Shown one piece after another: positions 892 through 33,117 of a stretch of 35,678 bases of DNA. This DNA comes from Pseudomonadota bacterium (GTDB taxonomy: Bacteria; BMS3Abin14). The position numbers were made by a program, and so were the translations under genes. Where the stretch lies: assembly GCA_003228585.1 (NCBI GenBank), contig QIEJ01000240.1, positions 1-35,678 on the forward strand, written 5' to 3'. The notes under the pieces were generated by a model. It had not been told where the DNA came from, did not search any database, and saw only the letters and a list, made by a program, of their open reading frames with translations. The stretch's first letter is position 1. Every line of letters starts with the position of its first letter.

Positions 892-947
892 GGTTTCGAG
901 TTTCATGTTTCAAGTTTCAATCCAAGATCCAACATCCAAGATCCAAA
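892..947. repeat. Heptad array A (8 words in register)
   Basis: GGTTTCG|AGTTTCA|TGTTTCA|AGTTTCA|ATCCAAG|ATCCAAC|ATCCAAG|ATCCAAA. Confidence 0.93.
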
Positions 948-950
948 AGG

Positions 951-1144
951 AAGCGCTTCTCACCGCAGTTCCTGGGAAACCCAACTTAAAGAGACGTTCG
1001 GAGCAAAGAGGAACGAACCCTAGGGTTTTAAGAGAACTGGGTGAGAGAGACTTTGACTGCGAACATCTCTGCGGTTACCGCTTTCCGAGATCGCCACGTC
1101 ACCCTTCCACGAAGCCAGAGTGACTCGCGATGACGATCGCTTTT
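951..1144. repeat. Palindromic MITE/REP-like element, copy 1 (diverged)
   Basis: Left AAGCGCTTCTCACCGCAG; right CTCGCGATGACGATCGCTTTT; internal CCGAGATCGCCACG. Confidence 0.7.
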
Positions 1145-1151
1145 CCCAACC

Positions 1152-1183
1152 ACCTCGATACTTCGTTACATCGATACCTCAAT
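1152..1183. repeat. Octad array A
   Basis: ACCTCGAT|ACTTCGTT|ACATCGAT|ACCTCAAT. Confidence 0.9.
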
Positions 1184-1215
1184 ACATTTAAACGCCATGC
1201 GCCCTGAATTTCGAC

Positions 1216-1617
1216 TTACTCTTCCTCCTCATCGCCAAGATCGGCGATATAGTCTTCGTACTCCTCGGGTTTCATCAGGATATCGATCTGATCAGAATCA
1301 TGCATCTGGATACTTATCAGCCATCCCTCACCATAGGGGTCCTCATTGACCAGTTCCGGGCTCTCGACCAGATCAGAATTGACCTCCACAACCTCACCGG
1401 AGACGGGAGCGGTAAGATCTGAAACAGCCGTCTCGGATTCAATGATCCCGAAAGGGGCCGCCATTCCAACCTCATCATCCAGATCAGGAAGATCAATGAA
1501 GATAACCTCGCCCAGCTCTCCCTGAGAATAATCCGTTACACCTACTCTGGATCGGTTGCCCTCAGGTTTAATCCAGAGATGATCGCGCGTGTAAAGGAAA
1601 TTTTTCGGAACATCCAT
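1216..1617 (-). CDS. Glycine cleavage H-protein-like protein lacking the canonical lipoyl-lysine
   Basis: YTRDHLWIKPEGNRSRVGVTDYSQGELGEVIFIDLPDLDDEV...SDLTAPVSGEVVEVNSDLVESPELVNEDPYGEGWLISIQ is H-protein-like; the lysine motif ESVKA reads ESETA. Confidence 0.92.
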   Translation of the reverse strand: MDVPKNFLYTRDHLWIKPEGNRSRVGVTDYSQGELGEVIFIDLPDLDDEVGMAAPFGIIESETAVSDLTAPVSGEVVEVNSDLVESPELVNEDPYGEGWLISIQMHDSDQIDILMKPEEYEDYIADLGDEEEE

Positions 1618-1650
1618 TTTTTATTCCCCCCACCCTCTTTCGTTTATGGT

Positions 1651-1687
1651 CCCGGAGCCTGATGAGATTCTCCGACGGGCTCCCGGG
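1651..1687. repeat. Short palindrome, GGAGCCTGTCGGAGAA type, copy 1
   Basis: CCCGGAGCC-TGATGAGATTCTCCGAC-GGGCTCCCGGG. Confidence 0.75.
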
Positions 1688-1782
1688 TCCTGGTTCAAGA
1701 TACAGGTCTGTGTCTGGTTTGCAAGTTCATGCCTTCACACTTTGCCTGTCCCGAGCTTAGTCGAGGGGTCCTTTGATCTTCA

Positions 1783-2430
1783 TTAAAACAGATACCCTAC
1801 CCCCAGGGATATGGAGTTTTCACCGAACAGATGAGCCTCCAGATTGAAGTAGAAGTTAAAATCCATGTAGTAATCGAGACCGAACAGAAGGTGGGGGATC
1901 CCATTCTCACTCAGGCTGTTTCCTTCACCCCCAAGGTCGACATAGGAAAAAGCCAGGCCTCCATAACCATTGGTTCCTCCCGATTTTACCGCTCCTAGTA
2001 ACGCCACCTGCCCTTCGAACATGTCGTAAGACCTTGAGCTCTCCTTGCTCTGTCTCCATTGTACCTGGGTGTCCACATTGATGGACAGGCTGGACTCCTC
2101 AGGAGCGAAGACCCTGAACAGGACACCACCTCCGTAGGCGAAGCCGAGACCTCCACCAAAACCGAATTCTCCAACGCGCAGATCCGCGGTACCTAACTTG
2201 AGGTAGGGGTTGACAACCTGGCTGACGCCATACACACCCTTGAGCAAAAAGGACGCGCTGGAGACATCAGTTTTATCGATCTCTACTTCAGAATATCCAA
2301 TGGACCCGGACAGGGAAGTCTGCCCTCGATCCAGCGCCTCACCTGGAGCGCCAACATCCAGAGCGTAAGCGTACTGAGATAATGAAAGGATCAGCAAAAA
2401 AACCAGAAACAGTAAATACCGATTTGACAT
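1783..2430 (-). CDS. Hypothetical outer-membrane beta-barrel-like protein
   Basis: 215 aa with signal peptide (RYLLFLVFLLILSLSQYAYA), alternating Gly/aromatic strands and terminal aromatic residues (GVGYLF). Confidence 0.6.
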   Translation of the reverse strand: MSNRYLLFLVFLLILSLSQYAYALDVGAPGEALDRGQTSLSGSIGYSEVEIDKTDVSSASFLLKGVYGVSQVVNPYLKLGTADLRVGEFGFGGGLGFAYGGGVLFRVFAPEESSLSINVDTQVQWRQSKESSRSYDMFEGQVALLGAVKSGGTNGYGGLAFSYVDLGGEGNSLSENGIPHLLFGLDYYMDFNFYFNLEAHLFGENSISLGVGYLF

Positions 2431-2699
2431 TACTCCCTCCCGGAAAATTTATCTGAACACTCCTGTGAACAGAAGTAGTGCGTTTCACCGTCGATCTTTT
2501 TCACCATCGCAGAGCTGCGGGGCATATAGACCCCACATTGAGGATCTCTTACCATCTCCTCGCCGCCAGTGGTTCTGTGTCCCCTGGTGCCGGGTTTTGC
2601 CGAGGACGAAGGTGGGACTCGGCGCCTGGAGCCGAATAGCAGTGCGCGGATCGCCCATGCAAGAACCAACAGGAAAAAGATATACAGCAGGCTTCTCAT
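2430..2699 (-). CDS. YHS-domain protein with N-terminal membrane anchor
   Basis: N-terminal hydrophobic helix; C-terminal MVRDPQCGVYMPRSSAMVKKIDGETHYFCSQECSDKF matches the YHS/TRASH pattern. Confidence 0.78.
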   Translation of the reverse strand: MRSLLYIFFLLVLAWAIRALLFGSRRRVPPSSSAKPGTRGHRTTGGEEMVRDPQCGVYMPRSSAMVKKIDGETHYFCSQECSDKFSGRE

Positions 2700-2703
2700 A
2701 TTC

Positions 2704-3570
2704 CTAAACCTTTATCTCCCCCGCTATCTCATCCAGAATCCGTTCGGTTGCCTGGTTCCTGTTCAACGTGTAAAAATGCAGGCCTTTCACACCGAAGCTG
2801 AGCAGCTCGAGGCACTGCTCCGTAGCGTACTGAACCCCGACATCCGTCATCTCTTCAATAGTTCTGCCTTCCATTTTTTTTACAATCCGTTCCGGGATGG
2901 TGGCCCCGCACATCTGGGTGAATTTCCGGATCTGGCTGATGTTGACGATGGGCATAATTCCCGGAATGATGGGTTTTTCAATTCTGGCTGCCGCAGCACG
3001 GTCCATAAAATCATACAGATAATTATTGTCGAAGAAAAGCTGGGTTATGATGAAATCAGCGCCGGCATCAACTTTCATCTTCAGGTAATCCATATCCCGG
3101 TCGATGGAGGGCGCTTCCATGTGTCCTTCCGGATGCCCTGCGACTCCAACGGTAAAACCGTTCAGATCCCGGATGTACTCAACAAGCTGATAGGCGTTCG
3201 TAAAATCCATTTTTTTTCTGTCTTCCGGAAAATCCCTGGGTGGATCTCCTCTAAGGGCAAGAATATTCCTGATGTCCTCTTCTTTCAGTTTGTTGACAAT
3301 GTCGTTGATATCCCCACTGGATGAAGCGATGCATGTCAGATGCATCATGACATTCAACTGGTGCTCATTCTTTATCCTCAGCGTCCAATCTATGGTTTTT
3401 TCCCTCGTACCTCCACCGGCGCCATACGTCACCGACACGAAATCCGGGTCAAATCTCCTCAGCTTGCTTACCGTCTCGTCAAGGACGCTTTCACTTTCGA
3501 GGTCCTTGGGGGGGAAAAACTCGAAGGACAGCAAAGTTCTCTTTTCTTTCAGCATGTCGCTTATATTCAA
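2704..3570 (-). CDS. metF: 5,10-methylenetetrahydrofolate reductase
   Basis: FEFFPPKD, VSVTYGAGGGTREKT, NILALRGDPP, DFIITQLFFDN, PIIPGIMPI motifs. Confidence 0.95.
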   Translation of the reverse strand: MNISDMLKEKRTLLSFEFFPPKDLESESVLDETVSKLRRFDPDFVSVTYGAGGGTREKTIDWTLRIKNEHQLNVMMHLTCIASSSGDINDIVNKLKEEDIRNILALRGDPPRDFPEDRKKMDFTNAYQLVEYIRDLNGFTVGVAGHPEGHMEAPSIDRDMDYLKMKVDAGADFIITQLFFDNNYLYDFMDRAAAARIEKPIIPGIMPIVNISQIRKFTQMCGATIPERIVKKMEGRTIEEMTDVGVQYATEQCLELLSFGVKGLHFYTLNRNQATERILDEIAGEIKV

Positions 3571-3593
3571 TTAGATAAACCTCAGTGGTGTCT

Positions 3594-3642
3594 ATTCCAA
3601 ATTTCAGATTCCAGATTCCAGATCAACGTACAAAGAGCAAAC
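3594..3642. repeat. Heptad array B (7 words)
   Basis: ATTCCAA|ATTTCAG|ATTCCAG|ATTCCAG|ATCAACG|TACAAAG|AGCAAAC. Confidence 0.92.
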
Positions 3643-3818
3643 GCTTGTCATTGCGAGGACCCTGAGTCCCGCCGATGGCGGGGTCGAAGGGGACGCGGCA
3701 ATCTCAGGTAGTCGAGATCATCCGACCAGACGAGGCGTTTTACGACTGTGGCAGTCACATCTTGCTGAGATCGCCACGCTCCCACAGGATTCCGGTCGCT
3801 CGCGATGACTGCGCATTT
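3641..3818. repeat. Palindromic element, copy 2
   Basis: ACGCTTGTCATTGCGAGG ... GGCAATCTCAG ... CTGAGATCGCC ... CTCGCGATGACTGCGCATTT; nested inverted repeats. Confidence 0.88.
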
Positions 3819-3819
3819 C

Positions 3820-3878
3820 CCAAACCCCAAGTCCCTAAACCCTGATTTTCCCTTTGCGTGACTTTGTGAACTTTGTGG
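3820..3878. repeat. Heptads CCAAACC|CCAAGTC|CCTAAAC|CCTGATT followed by 9-nt words CTTTGCGTG|ACTTTGTGA|ACTTTGTGG
   Basis: Read directly at 3820-3847 and 3852-3878. Confidence 0.75.
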
Positions 3879-3887
3879 TAAAAAATT

Positions 3888-4463
3888 TTACCCTCTCCTA
3901 TTCCCGTAGATCAGCGAAAGGGTTTCGCTGCGAGTCCTCTCATCCCTGCGGAATGATCCGCGAACAGCAGAGGTCACTGTCATCGAGTTGGGCATCCTGA
4001 CGCCGCGCATGGACATGCACATGTGTTCAGCTTCGATGACCACCATGACTCCCTTGGGGGAAAGACCGTTCATGATGGCCTCAGCCACCTGTGTCGTCAA
4101 TCTTTCCTGCATCTGGGGCTGTCGAGCGTAAATATCGAGAACACGTGCAATCTTTGACAGCCCAACGATCCTTCCACCCTCCGGGATATAGGCGATATGC
4201 GCACTCCCGACGAAGGGAACCAGGTGGTGCTCGCACATTGAATGCATCGGGATATCCTTGACCAGGACCATCTCGTCGTGGGTCTCCCCCTCCACAGGAA
4301 CCAGCAGCTCCATGGCATCCACCCCGATCCCGGAGAAAACCTCCTCATAAAGATCCGCCACTCTCCGGGGAGTCTCCAGCAGACCCGGCCTTTCCGGATT
4401 CTCGCCGATCCCCTCCAGGATCATGCTCATTCCCTGCTCAATCTTCTGTCTGTTCATTTCCAC
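3888..4463 (-). CDS. folE: GTP cyclohydrolase I
   Basis: [66 protein letters not shown]. Confidence 0.97.
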
Positions 4464-5664
4464 GCTCCAGATAGTACTGGGCCATGATTCTGTCCCGCAG
4501 TTCCCCCATCGGAATCCCTGAGCTCTCAGAAAGCTCCCTGATGTCCTCGAACTCCGGTTTGACCCGCCACCGGCCCGAGGGTGAACGCCACCTCTTGACC
4601 TTCACTTTTCCATATGCTGATACGATCTCGACCATTTCACGGGTGAGAATTTTACGGGAAACCTTCCAGGATCTCAGGCCCGCGCTTCCCGAAAGATCCA
4701 GAACCGTGCGGGCCATCCGCTCCTCGCTGCCGGATGGGACCAGGACACGCAGGAGCGCGCCGATCCTTCCCTTTTTGGTGTGCGTCGGGATCATGTGGAC
4801 CTCCAGGGCTCCCGCTTCATGGAGACTGGCTGTAAGAGGAGCAAGATATTCCGGACTCACATCATCGATTCCGCACTCGATCATAACGCTTTCATCTGTC
4901 GGCAGATCCCGGGATATATGGCCCCTGAATATCCTCAGCAGGTTAGGGAAGTCCGGATTGTCCCGCCCGCCGGCTCCGGTGCCGATGCTCTCGACAATCA
5001 TTTCGGGGACAGGTCCGAATCCCACTGCAAGCTCTTTAATGAGCGCTGCGCCGGTCGGCGTAGCCAGTTCCACAGCGGGTCCTCTGGCAAAGACGGGCAT
5101 CCCTTTCACCAGGTGCGCCGTTGCCGGTGCCGGCACCGGCATCATACCATGCTCCGTGTCAACAAAACCTTTTCCGAGGTTAACAGGTCCCGACATGATC
5201 TCGCCAATTCCTAAATGGAGGATTCCCGTTGCCACGCCGACAATATCCGCCAGTGTGTCCTGTCCTCCCAACTCGTGGAGATGGACAGCTTTCCGGGCAC
5301 CATGGGCCTTTCCCTCCGCCTCTCCCAATGACTCAACAATGCGGACACATCTGTTCTTGACGCTAATGGCCAGATCAGCCGACTCGATGAGGGCGATCAT
5401 GTCATTGAGTGTTCTTCTCGGGGGTCCGTCGGTCACAACCACCTTACACCGGATCCCCGCAAGTCCTGCCCGGGTTACCTCGCTTATGTCAAATCTAACC
5501 TCGCCGGGGATGATCTTGTCCACCGCATCCACCAGCATCCGTTCGGGGAACCCCAGAGAGAGAAGCGCTCCCAGGAACATATCGCCGGATACTCCGCTGA
5601 ACGGATCGATGTAGAGAACTTTTGCTCCACTATCGGGAGCATGATTGTTGGTTTCAGGTTTCAT
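4438..5664 (-). CDS. larC: Nickel pincer cofactor biosynthesis protein LarC (DUF111), single uninterrupted ORF
   Basis: [76 protein letters not shown]; start codon lies inside a heptad repeat array. Confidence 0.93.
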
Positions 5665-5699
5665 GTTTCAAGTTCCTGGGGTTGAATCCAAGATCCATC
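5650..5699. repeat. Heptad array C, overlapping the larC start
   Basis: GGTTTCA|GGTTTCA|TGTTTCA|AGTTCCT, then ATCCAAG|ATCCATC after a 1-nt shift. Confidence 0.9.
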
Positions 5700-5820
5700 A
5701 TTGCGAGGAGGCCCGCGGGTTGTGGCCGACGCGGCAATCCGGGACATGACGACCGAAGCAGTCACAGTTCGCCGAGATTGCCACACTCCCTGCGGTCGTT
5801 CGCAATGACAACCGCTTGTT
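5697..5820. repeat. Palindromic element, copy 3
   Basis: ATCATTGCGAGGAGG ... GCGGCAATCC ... GAGATTGCCACA ... TTCGCAATGACAACCGCTTGTT. Confidence 0.88.
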
Positions 5821-5826
5821 CAAATC

Positions 5827-5882
5827 ACCTCGATACTTCGACACCCCGTTACCTCGATACTTCTTCGCCCTTACGCCCTTTT
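5827..5882. repeat. Octad array C, overlapping the larB 3' end
   Basis: ACCTCGAT|ACTTCGAC|ACCCCGTT|ACCTCGAT|ACTTCTTC|GCCCTTAC|GCCCTTTT. Confidence 0.88.
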
Positions 5883-6628
5883 TCACCCGCCCCGAGGATC
5901 AGATGGGCTGCCACCGCCGCCCCATACCCATTGTCAATGTTCACAACCGTAAGACCGCAGGCACAGGAAGAGAGCATAGTGAGCAGGGGTGTGATCCCGC
6001 TCAGGGAGGCACCATAGCCCACACTGGTGGGAACACCGATGACCGGAACGGAAACCAGGCCGGTGACTACCGAAGGGAGCGCTCCCTCCATGCCGGCCAC
6101 GGCAACGATAACCCCAGCTTCCTCCATTTCAGCGCGGAATGCGGCCAATCGGTGAAGTCCGGAAACACCAACATCGTAGGCACGAATGAATTTTCTTCCG
6201 AGGAAAGAGATGGTTTTTACCGCCTCCTCAGCAACTGGAAGATCGGAAGTGCCCGCAGCCACAACCATAACAGGAGATCCGGCGCACCGGGGAAGAGAAC
6301 CGATAGCGAGGGTTCTGGACAGCTCATCGGTAACCGCTTCTGGCCATCTGCGTTGAACAAGTTGCGCCGTTTCCGGTGAGATCCGTGTTACAAGAACGGG
6401 AGACCCGGCTTCGGTGAGCTTTTCCACGATACCCTCGATCTGCCCGGGGGTTTTATCCTGCCCGTAGATCGTCTCCGGAATCCCCCTACGCAAGCGTCGA
6501 TGGGTATCCAGCCTCGCATAATCCATGCATATGGAGGGAAGATTCGCCAGGGACGCCAGAGCCGATTCCGGCGTCTGTGCACCATCTGAGACCATCTGCA
6601 GCAGTTTTAATAGTTCGTCGCGGTTCAT
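5849..6628 (-). CDS. larB: Nickel pincer cofactor biosynthesis protein LarB (AIR carboxylase-like)
   Basis: PETIYGQDKTPGQIEGIVEKL, VMVVAAGTSDLPVAEEA, VAGMEGALPSVVTGLVSVPVIGVPTSVGYGASLSGITPLLTMLSSCACGLTVVNIDNGYGAA. Confidence 0.94.
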   Translation of the reverse strand: MNRDELLKLLQMVSDGAQTPESALASLANLPSICMDYARLDTHRRLRRGIPETIYGQDKTPGQIEGIVEKLTEAGSPVLVTRISPETAQLVQRRWPEAVTDELSRTLAIGSLPRCAGSPVMVVAAGTSDLPVAEEAVKTISFLGRKFIRAYDVGVSGLHRLAAFRAEMEEAGVIVAVAGMEGALPSVVTGLVSVPVIGVPTSVGYGASLSGITPLLTMLSSCACGLTVVNIDNGYGAAVAAHLILGAGEKGRKGEEVSR

Positions 6629-6645
6629 GTTAGTTTAGTCCAGTT

Positions 6646-7566
6646 CTAGCCCGCTCTCCACTTCGCGGCATTCATGGTGTTGGCCATCAACATTGCTCGG
6701 GTCATGGGCCCAACCCCACCGGGAACAGGTGTATACCATCCGGCCACATCCACAACGCCGGGGGAAACGTCGCCAACCAGAGTGTATCCCTTCTTCTCAA
6801 AATCCCTGATTCGGGTTGGGTCTGTGGTGATCACTTCAGGGGATTCCTCCCGACTGATGGAATTCATCCCCACGTCGATGACAGCCGCTCCTTCCTTGAC
6901 CCAATCCTTCTCCACCATAAGAGGGCGGCCCACAGCAGCGACTACAATGTCCGCTTCCCTCACAACTCCGGGAAGATCGGGCGTTTTCGAATGACAAATG
7001 GTGACGGTAGCATGGCGATGAAGTAAAAGCAGGGCCACAGGTTTACCTACAATATCGCTCCTGCCGATAACCACCGCCCGCGCACCATGGGGGTTCACTC
7101 CTGACTCATCGAGCATTCTCATGACTCCAGAGGGCGTGCAAGGCATGAGGACCGCATGGTCTCCCCGGACCAGGCGGCCGACATTGATGGGATGAAAACC
7201 GTCAACGTCCTTTGCCGGATCGATTCGGTCAAGAACGGATATCGTATCTACACCCTCGGGGAGGGGGAGTTGAACGAGAATTCCATCAACTTTATCATCC
7301 CCATTGAGACGGTTCACCAGATCAAGTATCTTCTCAGTCGGTGTCTCGGCCGGCAATCGGTGGGAAAAAGACTCAATCCCGCACCGTCCGCAATCCTTGA
7401 TTTTCATGCGAACATAGACTGACGACGCCGGATCATCTCCCACGAGGACCACCGCCAGTCCCGGAGGCCGGCCGGTTTCAGCCGCGAATCCCTCCGTTTC
7501 CGATTTGACCTCTGCCAGCACCTTTGCGGCGATCTCGTTACCATCGATTATCCTGGCTTTCCCCAT
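6646..7566 (-). CDS. folD: Bifunctional methylenetetrahydrofolate dehydrogenase/cyclohydrolase
   Basis: VVLVGDDPASSVYVRMKIKDC, VDGILVQLPLP, DVDGFHPINVGRL, PCTPSGVMRML, VVIGRSDIVGKPVA, GGVGPMTRAMLMANT. Start set at ATG 7566 (AGGAG, 7-nt spacer); the longer ORF to 7608 reads into a heptad array. Confidence 0.96.
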   Translation of the reverse strand: MGKARIIDGNEIAAKVLAEVKSETEGFAAETGRPPGLAVVLVGDDPASSVYVRMKIKDCGRCGIESFSHRLPAETPTEKILDLVNRLNGDDKVDGILVQLPLPEGVDTISVLDRIDPAKDVDGFHPINVGRLVRGDHAVLMPCTPSGVMRMLDESGVNPHGARAVVIGRSDIVGKPVALLLLHRHATVTICHSKTPDLPGVVREADIVVAAVGRPLMVEKDWVKEGAAVIDVGMNSISREESPEVITTDPTRIRDFEKKGYTLVGDVSPGVVDVAGWYTPVPGGVGPMTRAMLMANTMNAAKWRAG

Positions 7567-7588
7567 CAGTTTGCTCCTCATTGATCTT

Positions 7589-7637
7589 GTCCAAGATCCA
7601 ACGTCCAAGGATCAAAATTCCAGATTTCACATTCCAA
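7589..7637. repeat. Heptad array D (7 words)
   Basis: GTCCAAG|ATCCAAC|GTCCAAG|GATCAAA|ATTCCAG|ATTTCAC|ATTCCAA. Confidence 0.92.
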
Positions 7638-7695
7638 AGCAGCCGCAGCTTGCCCGGATTGCTTCGCCAGCCAGGCAGCTCGCAATGACAACCGC
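7638..7695. repeat. Palindromic element, copy 4 (right half only)
   Basis: CCCGGATTGCTTCGCC...CAGCTCGCAATGACAACCGC. Confidence 0.75.
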
Positions 7696-7696
7696 G

Positions 7697-8179
7697 CTAC
7701 AATGTCAACCTTGCGCCTCTCAGGGTTCGCACGGTCAGGATCCCGGTATCGGTCTGGAACTCCACAGTTCTTCCCATGTTCCCGCCGATATCCTGAGCTT
7801 CCAGGGTAACACCGTAATAGCTCAGAGTCTTGCGCGCCGCAAGCGCGTTTCTCGAGCCTATCCGCCGGCTGACACCCCTGTAGCTTCCCGGAAACATCTC
7901 TGCACCACCTGCTATCTTTGCCGACAGATCCCGAGGCAGGATGGATCTTTCCTCAAAACCCCTGATCATGGCCACAGTGGCCGTATCAGCGAATTTTCCC
8001 GGCTTGTCCGTCTCATCCCTGTTAAAAGCCAATGGTAACATGACGTGGGCCATTGCCCCCAATCGGGCTTTCTCGCAATATAGAACGATGGCAACACATG
8101 AACCGAGGCCATACGTGATCAGTTGTTGAGGCGCCTCTGCTATTTTGTATTCAGAGATCCCGACAATGGCCGGCTTCAT
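7697..8179 (-). CDS. cheD: Chemoreceptor glutamine deamidase CheD
   Basis: ITYGLGSCVAIVLYCEKARLGAMAHVMLP, KIAGGAEMF, IGSRNALAARKTLSYYGV, DIGGNMGRTVEFQTDTG. Confidence 0.95.
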   Translation of the reverse strand: MKPAIVGISEYKIAEAPQQLITYGLGSCVAIVLYCEKARLGAMAHVMLPLAFNRDETDKPGKFADTATVAMIRGFEERSILPRDLSAKIAGGAEMFPGSYRGVSRRIGSRNALAARKTLSYYGVTLEAQDIGGNMGRTVEFQTDTGILTVRTLRGARLTL

Positions 8180-8805
8180 GGATCAGATCTCAACCTGGCT
8201 GCGGCCTGCAGAAAAAGCCGTATGCTGCCGGGATCGGGGATAATTACAACCTTCACCAGACTGCCGCCGGCACTGTCCTTCAACCGGGAAACCAGAGCCA
8301 GAACCTCATCGGCATGGGATCCGATCTCCGCGAGAATTGCATCCAGTATAGCACCTGCCATGTCCTTAACAGTGATCGGGGGAAGGCTGATCAGCAGGCG
8401 TTCGGAAAGGCGTGACAAAACTGTTATGAACGCACCCGACAGAATATTACCGGTTTCAGTGAAAGCGGAATCAACAAGCTCCCTGTTCGCGGCACTGTCG
8501 ACCGGAAAAAGCAACTTTTCAAGTTCGCGCCTTCCACCGTCCGGGAAAAGAAACAGGATGTTCCCTTCCACATCACCCTGAAAGGGAACGAGAACCCCGA
8601 CAGCCGGAGTATCTGATCCACCAAACAGCGAGGGGACCTCACCCAGTGGAAGTGTGAACACCTCAGGTGACGCCACAATTACGCTGACACCGGCAAGCCT
8701 GGAGAGGGCCGAGCCTGCCTGAGCGGCACACAGTGAGCAGATTTCTTTTATGGCATCTATGTCCCCTTGAGTCAGGGACAGCATGGAGGAACGGACATCA
8801 TCCAT
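8176..8805 (-). CDS. cheC: CheC-like chemotaxis phosphatase
   Basis: DSAFTETGNILSGAFITVLSRLSE active-site-like motif; overlaps cheD by 4 nt. Confidence 0.85.
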   Translation of the reverse strand: MDDVRSSMLSLTQGDIDAIKEICSLCAAQAGSALSRLAGVSVIVASPEVFTLPLGEVPSLFGGSDTPAVGVLVPFQGDVEGNILFLFPDGGRRELEKLLFPVDSAANRELVDSAFTETGNILSGAFITVLSRLSERLLISLPPITVKDMAGAILDAILAEIGSHADEVLALVSRLKDSAGGSLVKVVIIPDPGSIRLFLQAAARLRSDP

Positions 8806-8808
8806 TTT

Positions 8809-10863
8809 CTAAACGAGATGACCAAGATCGAGAACGGGAACAATTCTTCCATCTCCAAGGACCGTCATTCCCGAATATCGCTCAAGATGGTGGAGGGGAT
8901 AGCACAGGGGTTTGACAACAATGTCCTCCTGACCTGAGATGTCATCCACGACAATGCCCACTATCCTGTTGGTGACCTCGACAAGGACCACCGTGAGGAG
9001 CTGGTTGTCGCTCAGAGCGCCAGGCAGGGCCAACATCTCCCTCAGTTCGTAGAGCGGAACGAGTTCCTCGTCTATCGTCAGATAATAACGGCCCTGACTT
9101 TCCTTGATCTGTTCGATTTCTTTGCGAACAGTCCGTATCACGCGGGTAATGGGGATGGCGAACAGATGTTCCTGAAGGTTGACCAGAAGGATCTTGACTA
9201 TGGCCACAGTGAGGGGCACTTTGAGGGTAAAGGTGGTCCCTTCACCTGTTCTGCTGATAATAGCCAGCGTTCCGCCAAGGGATTCGATTCCCGACTGGAC
9301 GACATCCATTCCCACACCCCGGCCTGACACATCGGTTACCTTTTCAGCAGTGGAGAAGCCTGGTCTGCACACGAGCATCACCGTCTCCTCGTCACTCATC
9401 ACCTCGGCCTGGTTCTTTGTTATTATACCCTTCTCGACAGCCTTCGCCTTGATCTTTTCAAGGTTCATACCCCGACCATCATCCATCAATTCGATATGAA
9501 CCATGTCCCTCTCGCGGTAAGCCCGAAGTTTTATCTGTGCACTTTTACTCTTACCCGTTTTTATTCTCTCCCCGGCCTCCTCAATTCCGTGATCTACCGC
9601 ATTTCTCAGGATGTGAATGAGAGGATCGCTCAGTTCCTCCAGAACCGCCCTGTCAAGTTCGATCTCCGCCCCCTCTACCTCCAGCGAGACCTCCTTGCCC
9701 CCCTTTCTTGCCAGGTCCCGGACAACCCTTGGCAATCTCTGTGTTACCGTATCGAGGGGATCCATCCTCACTTTCATCACTTCACCGTAAAGCCCTCCCA
9801 CCAGATGATCCAGCCTGGTCAGCACCTGTTCGGCAACGGGGGATTCGGCTCCCTGATACAGTTCCTTGAGTCGACCCTTGGTAACGATGAGTTCACCCAC
9901 CAGGTTGATGAAAGTGTCAAGAAGAGCAGTGCTGATGCGAACGGTCTTTCCGGATGGCCCCGCGGTGGCAGCTTTGACCTGAGAGACAGGGGGAGAGACC
10001 GGTTCGGGTGCAGGTGGAGGCTCGGGGGCTGGATCGGGTGCGGGGACGGGCTCGGGTGCCGGATCGGGTGCGGGGGCAGGCTCGGGGGCTGGATCGGGGA
10101 CGGGCTCGGGTGCGGGTTCCAAGGTTGGTGATCCGACGATAAATTCCCCCATCTCCGGAACATTGCCAAGGACATCCTGTAAGGAGGACGTGTCGGTTCC
10201 GGTTATCACGAGGGACACTTCTCCCTCACAATTCCCGGATTTCATCTCTTCAATGGATGGTGTAACTGATCGGATCTCCCCCAGGGTCTCGAGCCGCTTG
10301 ACCGCCAGATAGGCGCGCGCGCAGGGAACAAGGCTGTCCTCCGAAACCTTGAAGGTAACGGGAATTCCGCCTGAGGCGGGCGCCTCGGTTTCAGTTTTGA
10401 TGTCGTCAGGAACAGTGTCCGATTCAGGGATTTCGGGTGGCTTATCTGCCGGCGGTTCTTGCGTAATTTCATCAGCGGATATACCGTCGATAATGCTTTG
10501 CACCTGAGCGATATATTGATCGATGTTAAAGTCGTCGAGGGAACTGTCCCCCTCGACCGCAGCTACCATGTTCTCGAGGTAATCCACTCCACTGAAAAGA
10601 ACATCTACAACTGGTGTGGTAATCTGAGCCTTGCCCTGACGAAAGATGTCCATCATGTCCTCCAGGTGATGGCTCAGTTGGGCTATTATGCCAAAACCCA
10701 TGGAGGCGGACATCCCTTTTATGGAGTGGGCATGGCGAAACAACTCGTTAATACTATCCGCTGCCTGTCCATCCTTCTCCAGGTTAAGAATGCAGTCGTT
10801 GATCCCCTGGAGATGCTCCCTTGCCTCGGAGACAAACAGATCCTTGTATTTGGACATATCCAT
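8809..10863 (-). CDS. cheA: Chemotaxis histidine kinase CheA with long Pro/Glu/Ala-rich linker
   Basis: P1 FRHAHSIKGMSASMGF; P3-P5 VGELIVTKGRLKE, HILRNAVDHGIE, GRGVGMDVVQSGIESLGG, FAIPITRVIRTV; linker (EP/AP/DP)n. Start chosen at the internal ATG; the ORF track extends to 10908. Confidence 0.95.
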   Translation of the reverse strand: MDMSKYKDLFVSEAREHLQGINDCILNLEKDGQAADSINELFRHAHSIKGMSASMGFGIIAQLSHHLEDMMDIFRQGKAQITTPVVDVLFSGVDYLENMVAAVEGDSSLDDFNIDQYIAQVQSIIDGISADEITQEPPADKPPEIPESDTVPDDIKTETEAPASGGIPVTFKVSEDSLVPCARAYLAVKRLETLGEIRSVTPSIEEMKSGNCEGEVSLVITGTDTSSLQDVLGNVPEMGEFIVGSPTLEPAPEPVPDPAPEPAPAPDPAPEPVPAPDPAPEPPPAPEPVSPPVSQVKAATAGPSGKTVRISTALLDTFINLVGELIVTKGRLKELYQGAESPVAEQVLTRLDHLVGGLYGEVMKVRMDPLDTVTQRLPRVVRDLARKGGKEVSLEVEGAEIELDRAVLEELSDPLIHILRNAVDHGIEEAGERIKTGKSKSAQIKLRAYRERDMVHIELMDDGRGMNLEKIKAKAVEKGIITKNQAEVMSDEETVMLVCRPGFSTAEKVTDVSGRGVGMDVVQSGIESLGGTLAIISRTGEGTTFTLKVPLTVAIVKILLVNLQEHLFAIPITRVIRTVRKEIEQIKESQGRYYLTIDEELVPLYELREMLALPGALSDNQLLTVVLVEVTNRIVGIVVDDISGQEDIVVKPLCYPLHHLERYSGMTVLGDGRIVPVLDLGHLV

Positions 10864-10928
10864 AATGGTCTGCTGAACCTCCCGGATGATCCGATGGCAG
10901 GAGTACAATCAATCAAGTTCGTTGACAG

Positions 10929-11321
10929 TCAATTGCCCCTTGTATCCTTGAGAATCCTGACGACCACATCGAGTACCTTCTCCGGTTGAAAGGGCTTGAC
11001 AATAAAATCCTTTGCCCCTGAATCGAGGGCCTCCATAACCAGGCTGTCCTGTCCGAGCGCACTGCACATGATGACGTTGGCATCGGCATTGATCTGCATG
11101 ATCTCTTTGAGGGCTTCGATACCTGTCATTTCGGGCATGACAATGTCCATGGTAATTACATCGGGCATGTGTTCCTTGTACTTCTCGACTGCCTCGATAC
11201 CGTTCTCGGCTTCGGCGACAACTTCATAATCCTCTTCGCCAAACTTTTTTCCCTGGAAAATATCACTGATCATGTTACGCATGAACATTGCGTCATCGAC
11301 GATCATAACCTTAATTGCCAT
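10929..11321 (-). CDS. cheY: CheY-type single-domain response regulator
   Basis: VMIVDDAMFMRNMI, DVITMDIVMPEMTGIEAL, VIMCSALGQ, GAKDFIVKPF. Confidence 0.92.
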   Translation of the reverse strand: MAIKVMIVDDAMFMRNMISDIFQGKKFGEEDYEVVAEAENGIEAVEKYKEHMPDVITMDIVMPEMTGIEALKEIMQINADANVIMCSALGQDSLVMEALDSGAKDFIVKPFQPEKVLDVVVRILKDTRGN

Positions 11322-11830
11322 TAGTCCTCCCCTTTCGCCACAGCCCCGTCAATCCAGACGCAAAGTTTGCTCGGGTTGATCAGCGATATAAGCTTGTCCT
11401 CACTCCGGAATACCCCTTCGATAAAAGACACCTGGCTGTTCTTCTGTTCTATCTCTCTTGTCACCTCTTCCAGAACAGAATATTTCACCATGGCCAGTAT
11501 GGATTCCACCCGGATGGCGATTCCTCCCCTTTCCGGGATCAGCCGGGTCAGTAGCTTGCCAGCGGGCTCGTCAGAGATGTTGAGAATCATGTCAAGGTTT
11601 ATTACAGTCGCCAGAATCCCGTGGACATTGATCACTCCCTCAATGAAAGGCGGTGCCATCGGAAGTGGTGTTATCTCATCAAGTTCATGGATCTCGGCGA
11701 TTTCCTCCAGAGGAATCGCCAGATATTCGTTCCCGATAGCAAAGAGGATAGCTTTGTGACCCGAATCCTCCTCAAGCTCCTCCTGATCTTCAAGCTCGTC
11801 GGGTACCTCAGCCTGATCATAGGAACTCAT
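11321..11830 (-). CDS. cheW: CheW-like coupling protein
   Basis: ILFAIGNEYLAIPLEEIAEIHELDEITPLPMAPPFIEGVINVHGILATVINL. Confidence 0.92.
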   Translation of the reverse strand: MSSYDQAEVPDELEDQEELEEDSGHKAILFAIGNEYLAIPLEEIAEIHELDEITPLPMAPPFIEGVINVHGILATVINLDMILNISDEPAGKLLTRLIPERGGIAIRVESILAMVKYSVLEEVTREIEQKNSQVSFIEGVFRSEDKLISLINPSKLCVWIDGAVAKGED

Positions 11831-11841
11831 TGCTTCTCCTG

Positions 11842-13098: not shown

Positions 13099-13130
13099 GA
13101 CATGGAACTCCTTTTCCTACCGTGCTATCC

Positions 13131-14069: not shown

Positions 14070-14115
14070 GAACTCTCCGGAATTAGTATCACAACAAATC
14101 TAACAGTGTCAATTG

Positions 14116-14141: not shown

Positions 14142-14183
14142 GTTTCATGTTTCATGTCAGATCAAAGATCAAAGAGCGAAGAC
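14142..14183. repeat. Heptad array E (6 words)
   Basis: GTTTCAT|GTTTCAT|GTCAGAT|CAAAGAT|CAAAGAG|CGAAGAC. Confidence 0.9.
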
Positions 14184-16029: not shown

Positions 16030-16064
16030 GTTCAGGGTTCAAAATTCCAGATTCCAGATTCCAA
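16030..16064. repeat. Heptad array F (5 words)
   Basis: GTTCAGG|GTTCAAA|ATTCCAG|ATTCCAG|ATTCCAA. Confidence 0.92.
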
Positions 16065-16066
16065 AA

Positions 16067-16198
16067 TAAGCGCAGTCATTGCGAACCGGTTGGTTCGTGA
16101 AGCAATCTCGGCAAGTTGAAACAGCCGCAGTCGCTATACTCCACGAGATTGCCACGTCGGCTGCAAATCCTGGCCTCCTCGCAATGACGAGCGCTTTT
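16067..16198. repeat. Palindromic element, copy 5
   Basis: TAAGCGCAGTCATTGCGA ... AAGCAATCTCG ... CGAGATTGCCACG ... CCTCGCAATGACGAGCGCTTTT. Confidence 0.9.
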
Positions 16199-16205
16199 CC
16201 CAATT

Positions 16206-16315
16206 ACCTCGACACTTCGCTACCTCGATACCTCGTTACTTAATATCGACCGGGCGACAGTGCGACCTTGCGAGTAATATCGCCACGTCGCAAAGTCTCC
16301 AAGTCTCAAAGTCGG
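16206..16315. repeat. Octad arrays F
   Basis: ACCTCGAC|ACTTCGCT|ACCTCGAT|ACCTCGTT|ACTTAATA (16206-16245) and AAAGTCTC|CAAGTCTC|AAAGTCGG (16292-16315). Confidence 0.85.
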
Positions 16316-24887: not shown

Positions 24888-24950
24888 GTTCCTGTGTCTC
24901 TTGTCCCGTGTTTCGGGATTCAGGTTCAAAATTCAAAATTCCAGAGCAAG
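24888..24950. repeat. Heptad array G (9 words), containing the lon Shine-Dalgarno
   Basis: GTTCCTG|TGTCTCT|TGTCCCG|TGTTTCG|GGATTCA|GGTTCAA|AATTCAA|AATTCCA|GAGCAAG. Confidence 0.88.
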
Positions 24951-25055
24951 CGTCTGTCATTGCGAGGAGCGCCGAGGTTGACGAGAACGACGTGGCAATC
25001 CCAGTTTGCCGAGATTGCTTCACGAGCCAACCAGTTCGCAATGACTGCGCATTTT
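24945..25055. repeat. Palindromic element, copy 6
   Basis: AGCAAGCGTCTGTCATTGCGAGG ... GTGGCAATCCC ... GAGATTGCTTCACG ... TTCGCAATGACTGCGCATTTT. Confidence 0.9.
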
Positions 25056-27135: not shown

Positions 27136-27205
27136 AGTACTAAAGTACTAGGTTCTAAGTACATAAGTATTTAAACCTTAGTCCTTAGTACATAGCACTT
27201 AGCCC
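27136..27205. repeat. Self-inverted heptad array (10 words)
   Basis: AGTACTA|AAGTACT|AGGTTCT|AAGTACA|TAAGTAT|TTAAACC|TTAGTCC|TTAGTAC|ATAGCAC|TTAGCCC; right half resembles the reverse complement of the left. Confidence 0.85.
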
Positions 27206-27311
27206 TATTTTTAACCAATTCCCTATTTACATTTTTGTATTTTCAAATTAATCTCATCCTTATATAGCATAACTACCAAGTATCGTAACTAAAGGCAGGA
27301 ACGAGGCAGAA

Positions 27312-27736: not shown

Positions 27737-27877
27737 ATCCAAAATCCAAGATCCAAAATCCAAAATAGTACTTATGTTCAAAACCGTGAGCAGGCAGACA
27801 AACGCGCTGTTTCCATTTCTTTATATTTAATTGGATGAACGAGCCCTGATCTTGGATTTTGGGTTTTGGATATTGGA
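27737..27877. repeat. Inverted pair of heptad arrays flanking an ~85-bp core
   Basis: ATCCAAA|ATCCAAG|ATCCAAA|ATCCAAA (27737-27764) and TCTTGGA|TTTTGGG|TTTTGGA|TATTGGA (27850-27877). Confidence 0.9.
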
Positions 27878-27922
27878 TTCTAATCCTGAACCGTTAATCA
27901 TAAATAACTGAAAGGAAAAAAC

Positions 27923-28800: not shown

Positions 28801-28883
28801 CTCCCCTCCCGGCAGCGTGTCGTAAAATCGGCAATTTCTTTACCTTGACACTTTACGGGGTTGTTAACAATACTGTAGAAACA

Positions 28884-28925
28884 GTTTCAAGTTTCAAGTT
28901 TCAAGTTTCAAGTTTGACGTTTCAA
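28884..28925. repeat. Heptad array J: (GTTTCAA)x4 + GTTTGAC + GTTTCAA
   Basis: Four perfect copies at 28884-28911, then two more in register. Confidence 0.97.
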
Positions 28926-28982
28926 GTAATAATATAATCCATCCGTTTTCTCGATGCTAATATAACCGAGAGGAGCCATCAA

Positions 28983-30551: not shown

Positions 30552-31628
30552 ATGAAAGTGTCCCGTTTGATCCTTTTGTCGGCGGTCTGTATTCTGGTAA
30601 CCGGCCTGATGCCCGGACTGGTCAAGCAAGCCCCCGCAGGAACAGATAAGAAGGAGCATTTCGTTCAAAAGGGCGATACACTCTGGGATATATCCTCCGT
30701 CTATCTCTATGATCCTTTTCAGTGGCCGCGTTTGTGGAACGTCAATCGGGAAATTGAGAACCCTCACCTGATCTATCCCGGCCAGATAATCAACATACCC
30801 ATGGAAATTGCAGCTCAGCGGACGCAACCGGAGACCGCCAGGCCCGAGTTGCCCCCGGCCCCTGAACCGGTTGCCGAGACCAAACCCGCCCCTGAGCCGG
30901 AGCCTGTTGAAGAACCGGTGCTCGAAACCCTGCCTGTGGCGATACAGCACGAGGTCATCAAGGCCCTTAGCACTTACGGCTTCATCGCCGACAAGAAAGA
31001 AATCGGGCTTGGAACAATCACTTCTCAGGAGGAAGACCGTTTACTTATCTCATCGGGTCAGACGGTCTATGTCAAAGCCAGGGATAAGGGAGGCCTGGAA
31101 GCTGGAGAAAAGTATTCCATCGTAAGAGTCTTCGAAGAGGTGAAACATCCTGTGACCAGAAAGAGAGTCGGATATCTTGCCCGAGTCCTGGGTGATCTGT
31201 CGGTAGTTGCCACTGATGAAAAAATGGCGACAGCCGTTATCGGAGATATCTACCTTGAAACCATGATCGGTGACAAGGTTATGAAACACGTTCAACATTT
31301 GACATGGCATCGCAAGACCGGGGGCCACCCCGGGGAGGTGCTCCAGGGATACATCGTGGCCAGCCCTGACGGGAAGATGATAATGGGCAAGGGGGACGTT
31401 CTGTTCATTGACCTCGGCAGAAATGACGGCCTCGGTACCGGAGAATCGCTCTGGGTCAGGAGCTCAGACACCAAGACCAGAGATCCCGGGATGACCGGCG
31501 CCATGGCTCCCACTCAGAAGAACCTGGGAACCGTTCAGGTCATCATCGCAAGAGACAAAACCTCCGTCGCCAGGATCACCAGCAGCAACATGGAGATCAC
31601 GCCTGGAGCGAAGATCATTACCCAGTAA
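30552..31628 (+). CDS. LysM peptidoglycan-binding domain protein with Pro-rich segment
   Basis: LysM HFVQKGDTLWDISSVYLYDPFQWPRLWNVNREIENPHLIYPGQIINIP; signal peptide; PPAPEPVAETKPAPEPEPVEEPV linker. Confidence 0.92.
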   Translation: MKVSRLILLSAVCILVTGLMPGLVKQAPAGTDKKEHFVQKGDTLWDISSVYLYDPFQWPRLWNVNREIENPHLIYPGQIINIPMEIAAQRTQPETARPELPPAPEPVAETKPAPEPEPVEEPVLETLPVAIQHEVIKALSTYGFIADKKEIGLGTITSQEEDRLLISSGQTVYVKARDKGGLEAGEKYSIVRVFEEVKHPVTRKRVGYLARVLGDLSVVATDEKMATAVIGDIYLETMIGDKVMKHVQHLTWHRKTGGHPGEVLQGYIVASPDGKMIMGKGDVLFIDLGRNDGLGTGESLWVRSSDTKTRDPGMTGAMAPTQKNLGTVQVIIARDKTSVARITSSNMEITPGAKIITQ

Positions 31629-31643
31629 ATCACCCAGTAAATC
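31620..31643 (+). repeat. 12-bp tandem duplication containing the stop codon of the LysM gene
   Basis: ACCCAGTAAATC|ACCCAGTAAATC. Confidence 0.95.
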
Positions 31644-31654
31644 TTAACCGCGGA

Positions 31655-32038
31655 TTATTGACCGGATTCCGGCTCAGACCCCGATCCGGGTTCAGCAGAA
31701 CCGGTATCCGTCTGCGGTACATCGGCCTGCTCGGCCGGTATCGCCTGACCGGCCTGATCCGGCACCTCTATGGGAATCTGCACTTCCGGAGCGATGGAAC
31801 CTTTGATCCTGCCTGAGGAAACATAGGCAAGGCTCAACGAGGTCAGCATGAAGACGACAGCGGCAGTGGTTGTCAGTTTGGCCATAAAACCGGCTGGGCC
31901 GGCGCTTCCGAAAACTGTCTGGCTTGCACCTCCAAACGCCGCACCCATTTCCGCGCCCTTTCCAGTCTGAAGGAGCACTACCAGTATCAGAAACACCGCG
32001 ACTGTGACGTGAAGTATTTTCAACAGAACAATTAGCAT
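31655..32038 (-). CDS. secG: Preprotein translocase subunit SecG
   Basis: ILHVTVAVFLILVVLLQTGKGAEMGAAFGGASQTVFGSAGPAGFMAKLTTTAAVVFMLTSLSLAY. Confidence 0.95.
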   Translation of the reverse strand: MLIVLLKILHVTVAVFLILVVLLQTGKGAEMGAAFGGASQTVFGSAGPAGFMAKLTTTAAVVFMLTSLSLAYVSSGRIKGSIAPEVQIPIEVPDQAGQAIPAEQADVPQTDTGSAEPGSGSEPESGQ

Positions 32039-32067
32039 TCTTTCCTTCGTCCTCCTCTACTTTTTCC

Positions 32068-32826
32068 TCAATCCCTACCGAAATTAACGATCCGGGAAAA
32101 GCTGTCAACATCGAGGCTTGCGCCGCCCACCAGGGCTCCGTTTATGTCCTTCATAGCCATTAATGCGTCCACATTGTCGGGTTTGACGGATCCCCCGTAA
32201 ATAATTCTGATCTTTTCCGAAACCTTTTCTCCGAGGACATTTCCCAACAATCCCCGAATAAAACCGTGCACTTCCTGAGCAGCTTCAGGGCTGGAGGTCT
32301 TTCCGGTTCCTATGGCCCAGACGGGTTCGTAGGCTATAACCAGTTCCTCCCCGCTATCAAGGACGATATCCTCAAATCCTCCCCGCATCTGTCTTTCTAT
32401 CACTTCAAACGTCTTTCCGTACTCTCTTTCCCCCAGTGTCTCACCGACACACAGGATAGGGACAAGCCCCTCCTGAAGAGCGGAATGGACCTTCCTTCCC
32501 ACCTCGCCGTCACCTTCACCAAAATACTGCCTTCTCTCTGAATGTCCCAGGATGACAAAACGACATCCCAGATCACGGAGCATCACGGGGCTGATCTCAC
32601 CAGTGTACGCGCCTTCCTGCTCCCAGAACATGTTCTGGGCAGCCAGGAAAAGACCTGCTTCCCTCAAAACCACACCCACGGCGGAAAGGGCCACGAAAGG
32701 AGGAGCAACAGCGACCTGAATTTCAGGGATGACCCTTAAATCAGGCAGCATCTCCTGCACCAGATCCACCGCCTCCGAAACTGTTTTATGCATCTTCCAG
32801 TTCGCCACGATTAACGGTGTCGGCAT
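32068..32826 (-). CDS. tpiA: Triosephosphate isomerase
   Basis: PLIVANWKMHKT, AAQNMFWEQEGAYTGEISP, FVILGHSERR, VIAYEPVWAIGTGK, IIYGGSVKPDN. Confidence 0.98.
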   Translation of the reverse strand: MPTPLIVANWKMHKTVSEAVDLVQEMLPDLRVIPEIQVAVAPPFVALSAVGVVLREAGLFLAAQNMFWEQEGAYTGEISPVMLRDLGCRFVILGHSERRQYFGEGDGEVGRKVHSALQEGLVPILCVGETLGEREYGKTFEVIERQMRGGFEDIVLDSGEELVIAYEPVWAIGTGKTSSPEAAQEVHGFIRGLLGNVLGEKVSEKIRIIYGGSVKPDNVDALMAMKDINGALVGGASLDVDSFSRIVNFGRD

Positions 32827-32896
32827 GGGTCTGAATCTCCTCTCATGCAGAAGGCGGGCTATATCACCGTTGCATTACCTTGTCAACTGTAACCAG

Positions 32897-32966
32897 GGTT
32901 CCACGTTTCAGGTTCCAGGTTTCATGGTAGATCAAAGAACAAAGAGCAAAGAACGAAGTATAAGCG
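32897..32966. repeat. Heptad array H (10 words)
   Basis: GGTTCCA|CGTTTCA|GGTTCCA|GGTTTCA|TGGTAGA|TCAAAGA|ACAAAGA|GCAAAGA|ACGAAGT|ATAAGCG. Confidence 0.93.
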
Positions 32967-33064
32967 CTTGTCACTGCGAGGAGGCCCGTATAATGCGGCC
33001 GACGCGGCAGTCTCAGATAGTTGAGATCGCTTCGTCCCGCTGGTCCTCGCCATAACAACCGTTT
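32961..33064. repeat. Palindromic element, copy 7
   Basis: TAAGCGCTTGTCACTGCGAGGAGG ... GCGGCAGTCTCAG ... TTGAGATCGCTTCG ... CCTCGCCATAACAACCGTTT, followed by TTCTCCTC|TTCTCCTC (33063-33078). Confidence 0.87.
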
Positions 33065-33117
33065 CTCCTCTTCTCCTCACCTGATTTTCGCTCCGGATCG
33101 TCAGCCGGGAGGGAAAA

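Follow-up and report, generated by a model that had tools for sequence, protein, structure and literature searches.

Intergenic arrays of about four copies of short, exchangeable words at gene edges in a BMS3Abin14 bacterium

Introduction

That heptamers are over-represented in bacterial intergenic spacers has been known since 2007 or earlier, and to our knowledge no cause has been accepted. Heptameric intergenic tandem repeats (STRRs) built from a few fixed words are known from cyanobacteria, and the STRR literature that we consulted for comparison describes neither paired arms nor a four-unit mode. The 'global regulator binding sites' of Geobacter metallireducens, each made up of four octanucleotides in tandem (GTTGCTYN, last base free), occur as opposite-strand pairs at variable distance (PMC2700814). 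The same species carries five tandem heptanucleotides MTYCTGA and 49 elements with four GGGACCG heptamers; these sites were read as being of the IHF/HU type, and insertion sequences lie near some of them (PMC2700814). The GGGAATC repeats of Xanthomonas and the GGGGA(C/T)T repeats of Nostoc use one G-rich word and were explained by G-quadruplexes (PMC4692102). In Beggiatoaceae, TAACTGA direct repeats are intergenic, occur in 2-6 copies near start codons and were read as a translational signal, and repeats of this type show indels in 7-nt steps in Cyanothece (PMC4679880).

Here we analyzed a stretch of 35,678 nucleotides (hereafter the window; contig QIEJ01000240.1, assembly GCA_003228585.1) from a bacterium of the GTDB lineage BMS3Abin14, in whose spacers a preliminary description had noticed arrays of 7-nt words. 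The arrays resemble the Geobacter sites in being built of about four 7- or 8-nt units in tandem and, in genus g4, in pairing on opposite strands at variable distance (gaps of 12-143 nt), an arrangement confined to a minority of sites in the host genome. They differ in that Geobacter repeats a small number of word classes many times, whereas dozens of words are found per genome here, and in that the arms of a spacer agree in their word and words turn over between congeners. The Beggiatoaceae repeats differ in being one word, with related heptamers rare, placed in forward orientation to the gene. Unlike the Xanthomonas and Nostoc repeats, the words described here mostly lack G-tracts and yet keep the four-unit architecture, so that a quadruplex cannot be the general cause; the main words (ATCTCA, ATTCCA, ATCCAA, GTTTCA and ACGCAG) contain no G3 tract, and the four G-tracts of at least three bases that define a quadruplex are thus missing. 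Since precedents are known, the arrays appear to be a variant of an already known, unexplained kind. The opinion that they are not a named system holds for the ensemble and has to be tempered by the close precedents in Xanthomonas, Geobacter, Beggiatoaceae and cyanobacteria.

Results

All 12 of the 12 stretches listed in the preliminary description were confirmed in place, with a lag-7 identity of 0.54-0.90; at lags 5 and 9 the same stretches gave 0.13-0.38 and 0.10-0.32, respectively. First-order Markov shuffles carried out stretch by stretch reached the observed score at p <= 0.0005-0.0015, and every listed array passed. The following features were assigned in the window.

893..919, + strand, four-unit block GTTTCR+N (shuffle test, read directly)
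920..946, + strand, second four-unit block, ATCCAA+N (N = G,C,G), directly behind the 893..919 block
1155..1187, + strand, 8-nt array of the TCGATACC type, bordering the opposite end of the spacer that holds the 893..946 blocks
3594..3620, + strand, four-unit block ATTYCA+N, with degenerate CAAAR units running on to 3642 (shuffle test)
3648..3808, unstranded, palindromic repeat element E (TCATTGCGAGG...CCTCGCAATGA) in the spacer centre
5651..5677, + strand, four-unit block GTTYCA+N (shuffle test)
5698..5808, unstranded, element E between heptad block and 8-nt array
5826..5857, + strand, 8-nt array facing the 5651..5677 block from the opposite edge of their spacer
7589..7637, + strand, degenerate blocks, TCCAAR then ATTYCA (p <= 0.0015)
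14142..14182, + strand, two GTTTCA units, then an AGATCAA-type block (shuffle test)
16030..16063, + strand, block of GTTCAAA/ATTCCA units (shuffle test)
16076..16187, unstranded, element E, with the heptad block on one side and the octad arrays on the other
16205..16239, + strand, 8-nt array of the TACCTCGA type
16283..16313, + strand, second 8-nt array, of the GTCTCAAA type
24888..24950, + strand, two degenerate blocks upstream of lon (shuffle test)
24957..25044, unstranded, element E
27136..27170, + strand, GTACTAA-type array, left arm of an inverted pair (shuffle test; pairing by eye)
27171..27206, - strand, right arm of the 27136..27170 pair, inverted, same word
27737..27763, + strand, left arm, four ATCCAA units (N = A,G,A) (shuffle test)
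27852..27878, - strand, right arm in the same spacer as 27737..27763, four inverted ATCCAA-type units (N = T,A,A)
28883..28927, + strand, six-unit GTTTCA array between divergent genes (shuffle test)
32898..32924, + strand, four-unit block GTTYCA+N (shuffle test)
32929..32958, + strand, second four-unit block, AGANCAA

The lag-7 excess was examined in 415 kb of the host genome, sampled in stretches. Spacer identity showed a sharp peak at lag 7 (0.286, against 0.267-0.268 at the neighbouring lags), with 0.279 at lag 14, while coding DNA gave 0.244 at lag 7. In this sample the spacers contained 64 lag-7 segments, where the Markov null gave 0 and the coding density predicted 0.7, and segments at other lags numbered 11 (lag 8), 5 (lag 9) and 0 (lags 4-6 and 10-12). 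Arrays are rare in coding DNA. The excess is thus confined to spacers, in agreement with the view of an intergenic system, and the first condition that the preliminary description had named as refuting it, the absence of a lag-7 excess, did not hold. The proposal that arrays recur in most spacers overstates their frequency (one is present in 50 of the 153 spacers measuring 80 bp or more). They were found throughout the GTDB phylum of the host, sampled here as one family with 12 species, and were rare in Firmicutes control loci, which were mainly-Firmicutes loci from a contig scan with GalU that recovered no relatives of the host lineage.

The basic unit is a word of about 6 nt followed by one loosely constrained base, and the most constant feature of a block is its unit number, with a sharp mode at four (62, 217 and 47 arrays with 3, 4 and 5 units) that was seen in three genomes. 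Pooled by word family, the core columns of ATCTCAN deviate in 4-11% and column 7 in 50% of cases. The same pattern of conserved core and loose base was found for ATCCAAN; most of its arrays belong to the host genome (16/23 inward), where arms rarely match. It does not extend to every family: CCAAAGN when pooled gave 0-12% core deviation against 67% at the loose column, but CCAAAG and AGTACC both fail an unbiased test of the one-loose-base pattern. Tested array by array, there was no general excess of columns hit twice (31 against 29.2), and the pattern therefore rests on the pooled word families. The period is not solely 7, as there are also arrays of 8 nt and some of 9 nt. A step of 7 nt therefore dominates without being exclusive, and the data do not support a generating process whose step is held strictly at 7 nt, as had been proposed. 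Word changes within arrays, described earlier as switches in constant register, do exist; most of them are junctions of two four-unit single-word blocks, at which, read by eye, the spacing is 0 or 4 nt rather than 1, so that the register is not strictly kept. Such back-to-back blocks occur at 893-919 (GTTTCR x4) and 920-946 (ATCCAA x4) and again at 32898-32924 and 32929-32958.

The words are drawn from a limited dictionary. In genome G008, 338 arrays fall into 55 word families, and the ten largest families account for 65% of the arrays in G008 and 61% in G003, compared with 20% and 23% for random words. Most large families are strand-polar (31:5, 26:6 and 25:3, for example, in G008), the blocks adjoin gene edges, and the inward strand is biased overall (TCC 127:10 and CCA 118:11 in the host genome). 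In same-word arrays from different spacers the N letters agree no better than chance. Copying and pasting of whole 27-mers between spacers was rejected on the shared N letters in G008 (161 against 158 +/- 2).

In genus g4, 41-53% of block pairs at the two edges of a spacer have a common word, against a background of 6% (about 6-10x), and a word is shared across a gene in only 4-5%, a value that led us to reject gene cassettes flanked by matching arrays. The arms of one spacer rarely match in the host genome (2/8, background 17%). When two arms were compared, the core matched in 93% and the variable column in 27% (N-letter matches 3/21), indicating that the arms are not recent copies of each other. 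Matched pairs were equally frequent in all gene orientations in G008 (++ 8%, -- 7%, +- 6%, -+ 7%), which points to a role at the level of DNA rather than of the transcript; the intrinsic-terminator pattern, with convergent pairs enriched and divergent pairs absent, was not observed for them.

Orthologous spacers keep their blocks, mostly with other words (8 of 31 edges share the word). Related species thus carry blocks in the same gaps but built from different words, and the architecture outlasts the sequence. Whole words were exchanged between congeners whose flanking genes are 70-87% identical, and the lengths of their array-bearing orthologous spacers differed by multiples of 7 in 2 of 35 cases, showing no preference. 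In some orthologous pairs both arms changed their word together (e.g. L121 4519 and L126 16004).

Discussion

We propose, with a probability of roughly 0.4, that the arrays are DNA-level binding arrays for several putative word-specific proteins that would act on the spacer as DNA. Each block would offer about four adjacent 6-bp sites one base apart, or in some families 7-bp sites with a period of 8, taken from the limited dictionary, strand-polar, set against gene ends and often forming inverted pairs across the spacer. The putative proteins might, for example, bridge the two spacer edges, or the blocks might act as the ends of small non-autonomous elements. A block would be created by local duplication, have a limited lifetime, decay and be replaced by a block of another word. 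In favour of this reading are the limited dictionary, the strand polarity, the conserved cores beside one loose base, the four-unit mode, the matching arms in g4 with their independence of gene orientation, and the chance-level agreement of N letters between spacers. Against it count the rarity of matching arms in the host genome, the families that lack the loose-base pattern, and the duplication signatures described below. Retention of the word at so few orthologous edges would be odd for functional binding sites.

The main rival to the binding arrays is a mutational generator without function, which we consider possible but doubtful. In this scenario a repair or replication process not yet known would make short tandem copies at gene edges (W -> WaW -> WaWbWaW, with a filler base per junction), a block would be copied inverted to the opposite edge, and neutral decay would leave survivors only in non-coding DNA. 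Such a process would suit the scarcity of arrays in coding DNA and the turnover of words at conserved sites. Four-unit arrays show an excess of N1 = N3 (98/196 against 60 and 67; in G008, 93/217 against 57 and 59), a duplication scar that needs no reader, and unit similarity in long arrays of the host genome drops with unit distance from 0.81 to 0.42. With the arrays masked, a residual lag-7 signal persists in every dinucleotide (1.31, 1.35), as duplications decaying without selection would produce; because no single dinucleotide accounts for it, we rejected a fixed dinucleotide contact recurring every 7 nt in DNA outside the arrays. The generator is opposed by the limited, strand-polar and recurring dictionary, by arms that match in their cores and not in their N letters, and by the small number of isolated two-unit intermediates (119 in G008, 54 expected), which we regard as few. 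Ordinary 7-nt slippage (STRR/SSR expansion) is very improbable. Heptamer SSRs are over-represented in many bacteria, for which a polymerase-footprint cause has been proposed (PMC4692102), and the arrays do consist of tandem copies of one short intergenic unit. However, instead of a broad distribution falling monotonically, the copy number of dictionary-word arrays peaks sharply at four (33, 92, 11 and 2 arrays with 3, 4, 5 and 6 units), and slippage predicts neither inverted matched arms nor polarity, a dictionary or unmatched N letters. We agree with the preliminary description, partly supported overall, that simple one-unit slippage does not explain the arrays, which call for either a generator or a repeated contact.

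Arms that share a word and in some orthologous pairs change it jointly are also what would be expected if they were kept complementary for an RNA or cruciform hairpin, made of 6-bp helices with 1x1 mismatches and serving as a boundary structure. Matched spacers indeed fold better than their shuffles (median z -2.3; the remaining array spacers gave -1.1). We nevertheless consider such hairpins unlikely, because base pairing as such gives no reason for repeating a word four times, many array spacers lack a second arm that matches, matching in the host genome is near background, gene orientation has no effect, unlike for a terminator, and no Rfam family matches the window. That the blocks are by-products of transposition, as targets or footprints of MITE-like repeats, seems least credible of all. 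In the host genome, element E is often flanked by a heptad array on one side and an octad array on the other (11/34 copies), 25 of 74 arrays are within 60 nt of an E end, and in G003 a different repeat is located within four-unit arrays; this second repeat, however, targets AANNTT-like sites and lies mostly outside arrays in G006, and elements of this kind are missing from most arrays. We rejected MITE insertion as the cause on the same target sites and the lack of a tie to arrays in G006. RVT_1, searched in 12 genomes, was absent from the host genome and 9 others, and a reverse transcriptase as array maker (CRISPR, DGR or other RT-made repeats) was rejected. REP/RAYT elements were likewise rejected, the host genome having no match to PF01797 (Y1 transposase, RAYT).

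The dozens of words found in one lineage separate what is constant (about four copies, a spacing of 7-8 nt, polarity and mirrored arms) from the variable word, and such a many-word lineage argues against G-quadruplexes and plain slippage as explanations of the known cases. We suggest, tentatively and as a reading that may well prove wrong, a phylum-wide intergenic system defined by architecture and not by sequence, in which a word would be repeated four times with a free base after each copy but the last and mirrored at the spacer edges, the word itself being exchangeable over time. If this is true, the 'quadruplex' repeats of Xanthomonas and the 'regulator sites' of Geobacter would be single-word cases of the same system.

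Extent of the seven-nucleotide periodicity

The preliminary description had reported dispersed arrays of 7-nt words in the spacers of the window between 892 and 33078. The array coordinates that it listed were correct, with a lag-7 identity of 0.54-0.90 per stretch, above first-order Markov shuffles (p <= 0.0005-0.0015). We then took 415 kb of the source genome (G000; 2.09 Mb, 276 contigs, the window being contig C5), with genes called by a simple hexamer model. Autocorrelation, the check that the description had proposed, gave peaks at lags 7, 14 and 21 in the spacers of this sample and none at these lags in its coding DNA. By local score the spacers held 64 lag-7 segments (0 in Markov-resampled spacers, 0.7 expected from the coding density), 11 at lag 8, 5 at lag 9 and 0 at lags 4-6 and 10-12. 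G008, a related genome of the same phylum, had 132, 38 and 10 segments at lags 7, 8 and 9. Firmicutes control loci yielded 12 lag-7 segments in 175 kb of spacers, per kb about 20-fold below the own genome. Eleven of the phylum's 12 genomes carried a single word pattern, RTTYCAR x3. Among 49 genomes sampled from other lineages it occurred only in G035 and G049, and the former has similar arrays.

The stretch 1216-16008 of the window holds one-carbon/folate genes (GcvH, MTHFR, GTP cyclohydrolase I, FolD), nickel-insertion (LarC-like) and AIR-carboxylase-like (LarB-like) genes and, after these, a chemotaxis cluster (CheD, CheX/CheC, CheA, CheW, MCP, CheR). Within the CheA-like histidine kinase gene, 9999-10117 encodes a repetitive linker of Pro/Ala/Ser type, with repeat periods of 60/30/12-18 bp.

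Anatomy of the blocks

The sharpest feature of the arrays is their unit number. Runs of dictionary (recurring) words with 3, 4, 5 and 6 units occurred 33, 92, 11 and 2 times in G008 plus G003, both of genus g4, and 11, 36, 7 and 1 times in the own genome. A word-free count of 3, 4 and 5 units gave 62, 217 and 47 in G008 (1.2 Mb) and 49, 116 and 26 in G003 plus G011. The three-unit figure of this word-free count is weakened by score-based detection; the dictionary-word count is independent of such detection. Four-unit arrays were also found among octads, arrays of period 8 (25 collected). One spacer (L121, a sampled DNA stretch with its own coordinates, 8611-9031) is nearly all 8-nt units (GTGTCTAN / GTATCTAN) over ~400 bp, far above the four-unit norm. 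By eye, the word changes seen in the preliminary description fall mostly between adjacent blocks:

Window 893-919, GTTTCR block, adjoining 920-946, ATCCAA block
Window 32898-32924, GTTYCA block, adjoining 32929-32958, AGANCAA block

The dictionary is limited: 338 arrays fell into 55 families (139 for random words), and ten families covered 65% of them (20% for random words). Pooled by word, core deviation was 4-11% against 50% at the loose base N for ATCTCAN, 0-12% against 67% for CCAAAGN and 2-10% against 40% for ATCCAAN (mostly own genome). Since N is left free in consensus matching, this pooling is circular in part. When consensus mismatch was allowed in any column within arrays, N still ranked first or close to first by deviation in 8 of 10 families; in CCAAAG and AGTACC it did not. 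The most variable column held 0.586 of deviations against 0.518 +/- 0.009, and a test on distinct-base counts gave no excess. The "6+1" grammar of the units is supported but not proven.

Placement, polarity and matching arms

Blocks lie close against gene ends, the median gap in G008 and G003 being 6-7 nt on the stop side and 25-31 nt on the start side. Their strand polarity follows the spacer edge, not transcription, and CA, AG, TCC, CCA, CAA and CAG dominate reading inward from either flanking gene (in the own genome, TCC 127:10 and CCA 118:11).

In genus g4 the same word stood at opposite spacer edges in 53% of cases in G008 (n=92) and 41% in G003 (n=54), compared with a background of 6%, 4-5% across one gene and 8-14% on the same side. 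In 32 matched pairs the arms had the same letter at 440/472 core positions (93%); in the variable column they did so at 18/66 (27%), which is close to chance. N letters of the arms agreed in 3/21 of a second, word-based set. The matched-pair rate in G008 was independent of gene orientation (++ 17/204, +- 7/109, -- 15/205, -+ 9/138), and matched spacers folded somewhat better relative to shuffles (median z -2.3, vs -1.1 for other array spacers). Arm matching in the own genome was near background (2/8), although two spacers of the window, at 27136-27206 and 27737-27878, appear paired.

Turnover between related species

Among 135 orthologous spacer pairs (G008 vs G003/G011, flanks 70-87% identical), 31 edges had blocks in both species, 59 in one and 180 in neither, and only 8 of the 31 had a common word. 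When both orthologues measured 80-400 bp, block presence was strongly correlated between species (28/7/13/31; odds ratio 9.5, p = 1e-5). The length differences of array-bearing spacers did not favour multiples of 7 (2 of 35). Words were replaced, for example, at:

L121 4519, ATCTCA/ATCTCA in G008, GTTCCR/ATTCCA in G011
L217 11655, GTAC-type arms in G008, GAAGGA-type arms in G003

Other repeats in the spacers

Element E (TCATTGCGA...TCGCAATGA; TCATTGCGAGG...CCTCGCAATGA), a palindromic intergenic repeat of 74-161 bp with 34 copies in the 415 kb, is a frequent spacer centre in the own genome, and 11/34 copies are flanked by heptads and octads on opposite sides. A second, MITE-like repeat of ~154 bp (GAYAGRGTCGCAAAAAGTC...GCGAAGTCATC) has duplicated AANNTT-like targets, apparently the reason why several G003 copies sit within heptad arrays and interrupt them. 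Neither repeat accounts for most arrays.

Element E: window 3648-3808, 5698-5808, 16076-16187, 24957-25044
MITE-like repeat: L142 17511-17770, L144 12396-12762, L148 2136-2582; about 43 places in genome G006

A word array of ~9-nt period, CTTTGCGTGACTTTGTGAACTTTGTGG, lies at window 3855-3893, close to where the GTP cyclohydrolase spacer begins. Inverted pairs of ~9-nt units (AACAGGGATGAAGGGGATAAAGGGGAT...ATCCCCTTTATCCCTGTTAA; L128 about 8990-9030, L130 about 5840-5900, L137 about 19840-19960) resemble the class 4 sites (CCYTC) of Geobacter and are possibly of the same kind as the heptad blocks, with another period.

Origin and possible function

Limited dictionary, polarity and loose N favour a reading, to which we give a probability of about 0.4, in which the words would be read as DNA by several putative word-specific proteins at multi-site arrays on spacer edges. 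It is somewhat less probable that an unknown duplication process generates blocks that nothing reads, for which three traces speak. The first and third loose letters of four-unit arrays agreed in excess (98/196 vs 60 and 67; in G008, 93/217 vs 57 and 59), which is the scar of a doubling of WaW into WaWbWaW. With the arrays masked, the lag-7 signal persisted for all dinucleotides (1.31 in G008, 1.35 in G003), as decayed blocks would leave it. The third is word turnover. Isolated two-unit pieces were few (119 vs 54 expected), and same-word blocks of different spacers had N letters in common no more than chance. Protein-read words and reader-free duplication may both be partly true.

Plain slippage, already held insufficient in the preliminary description, does not fit the unit number, arms, dictionary and polarity. 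Orientation independence and the many unpaired arrays speak against a transcript-level hairpin or terminator, and reverse transcriptase and RAYT, considered as generators, are both absent from the own genome.

The architecture of the blocks is common to repeats already known. In Geobacter metallireducens, sets of four tandem GTTGCTYN octanucleotides are paired on opposite strands, MTYCTGA occurs in five units, and GGGACCG forms 49 elements of four units (PMC2700814); in Xanthomonas, GGGANTN arrays peak at four units, include about 70 inverted pairs and are placed like the blocks here (PMC4692102); Beggiatoaceae carry TAACTGA repeats (PMC4679880). What sets the present blocks apart from these cases is the large number of words, the matching of arms and the turnover of words.
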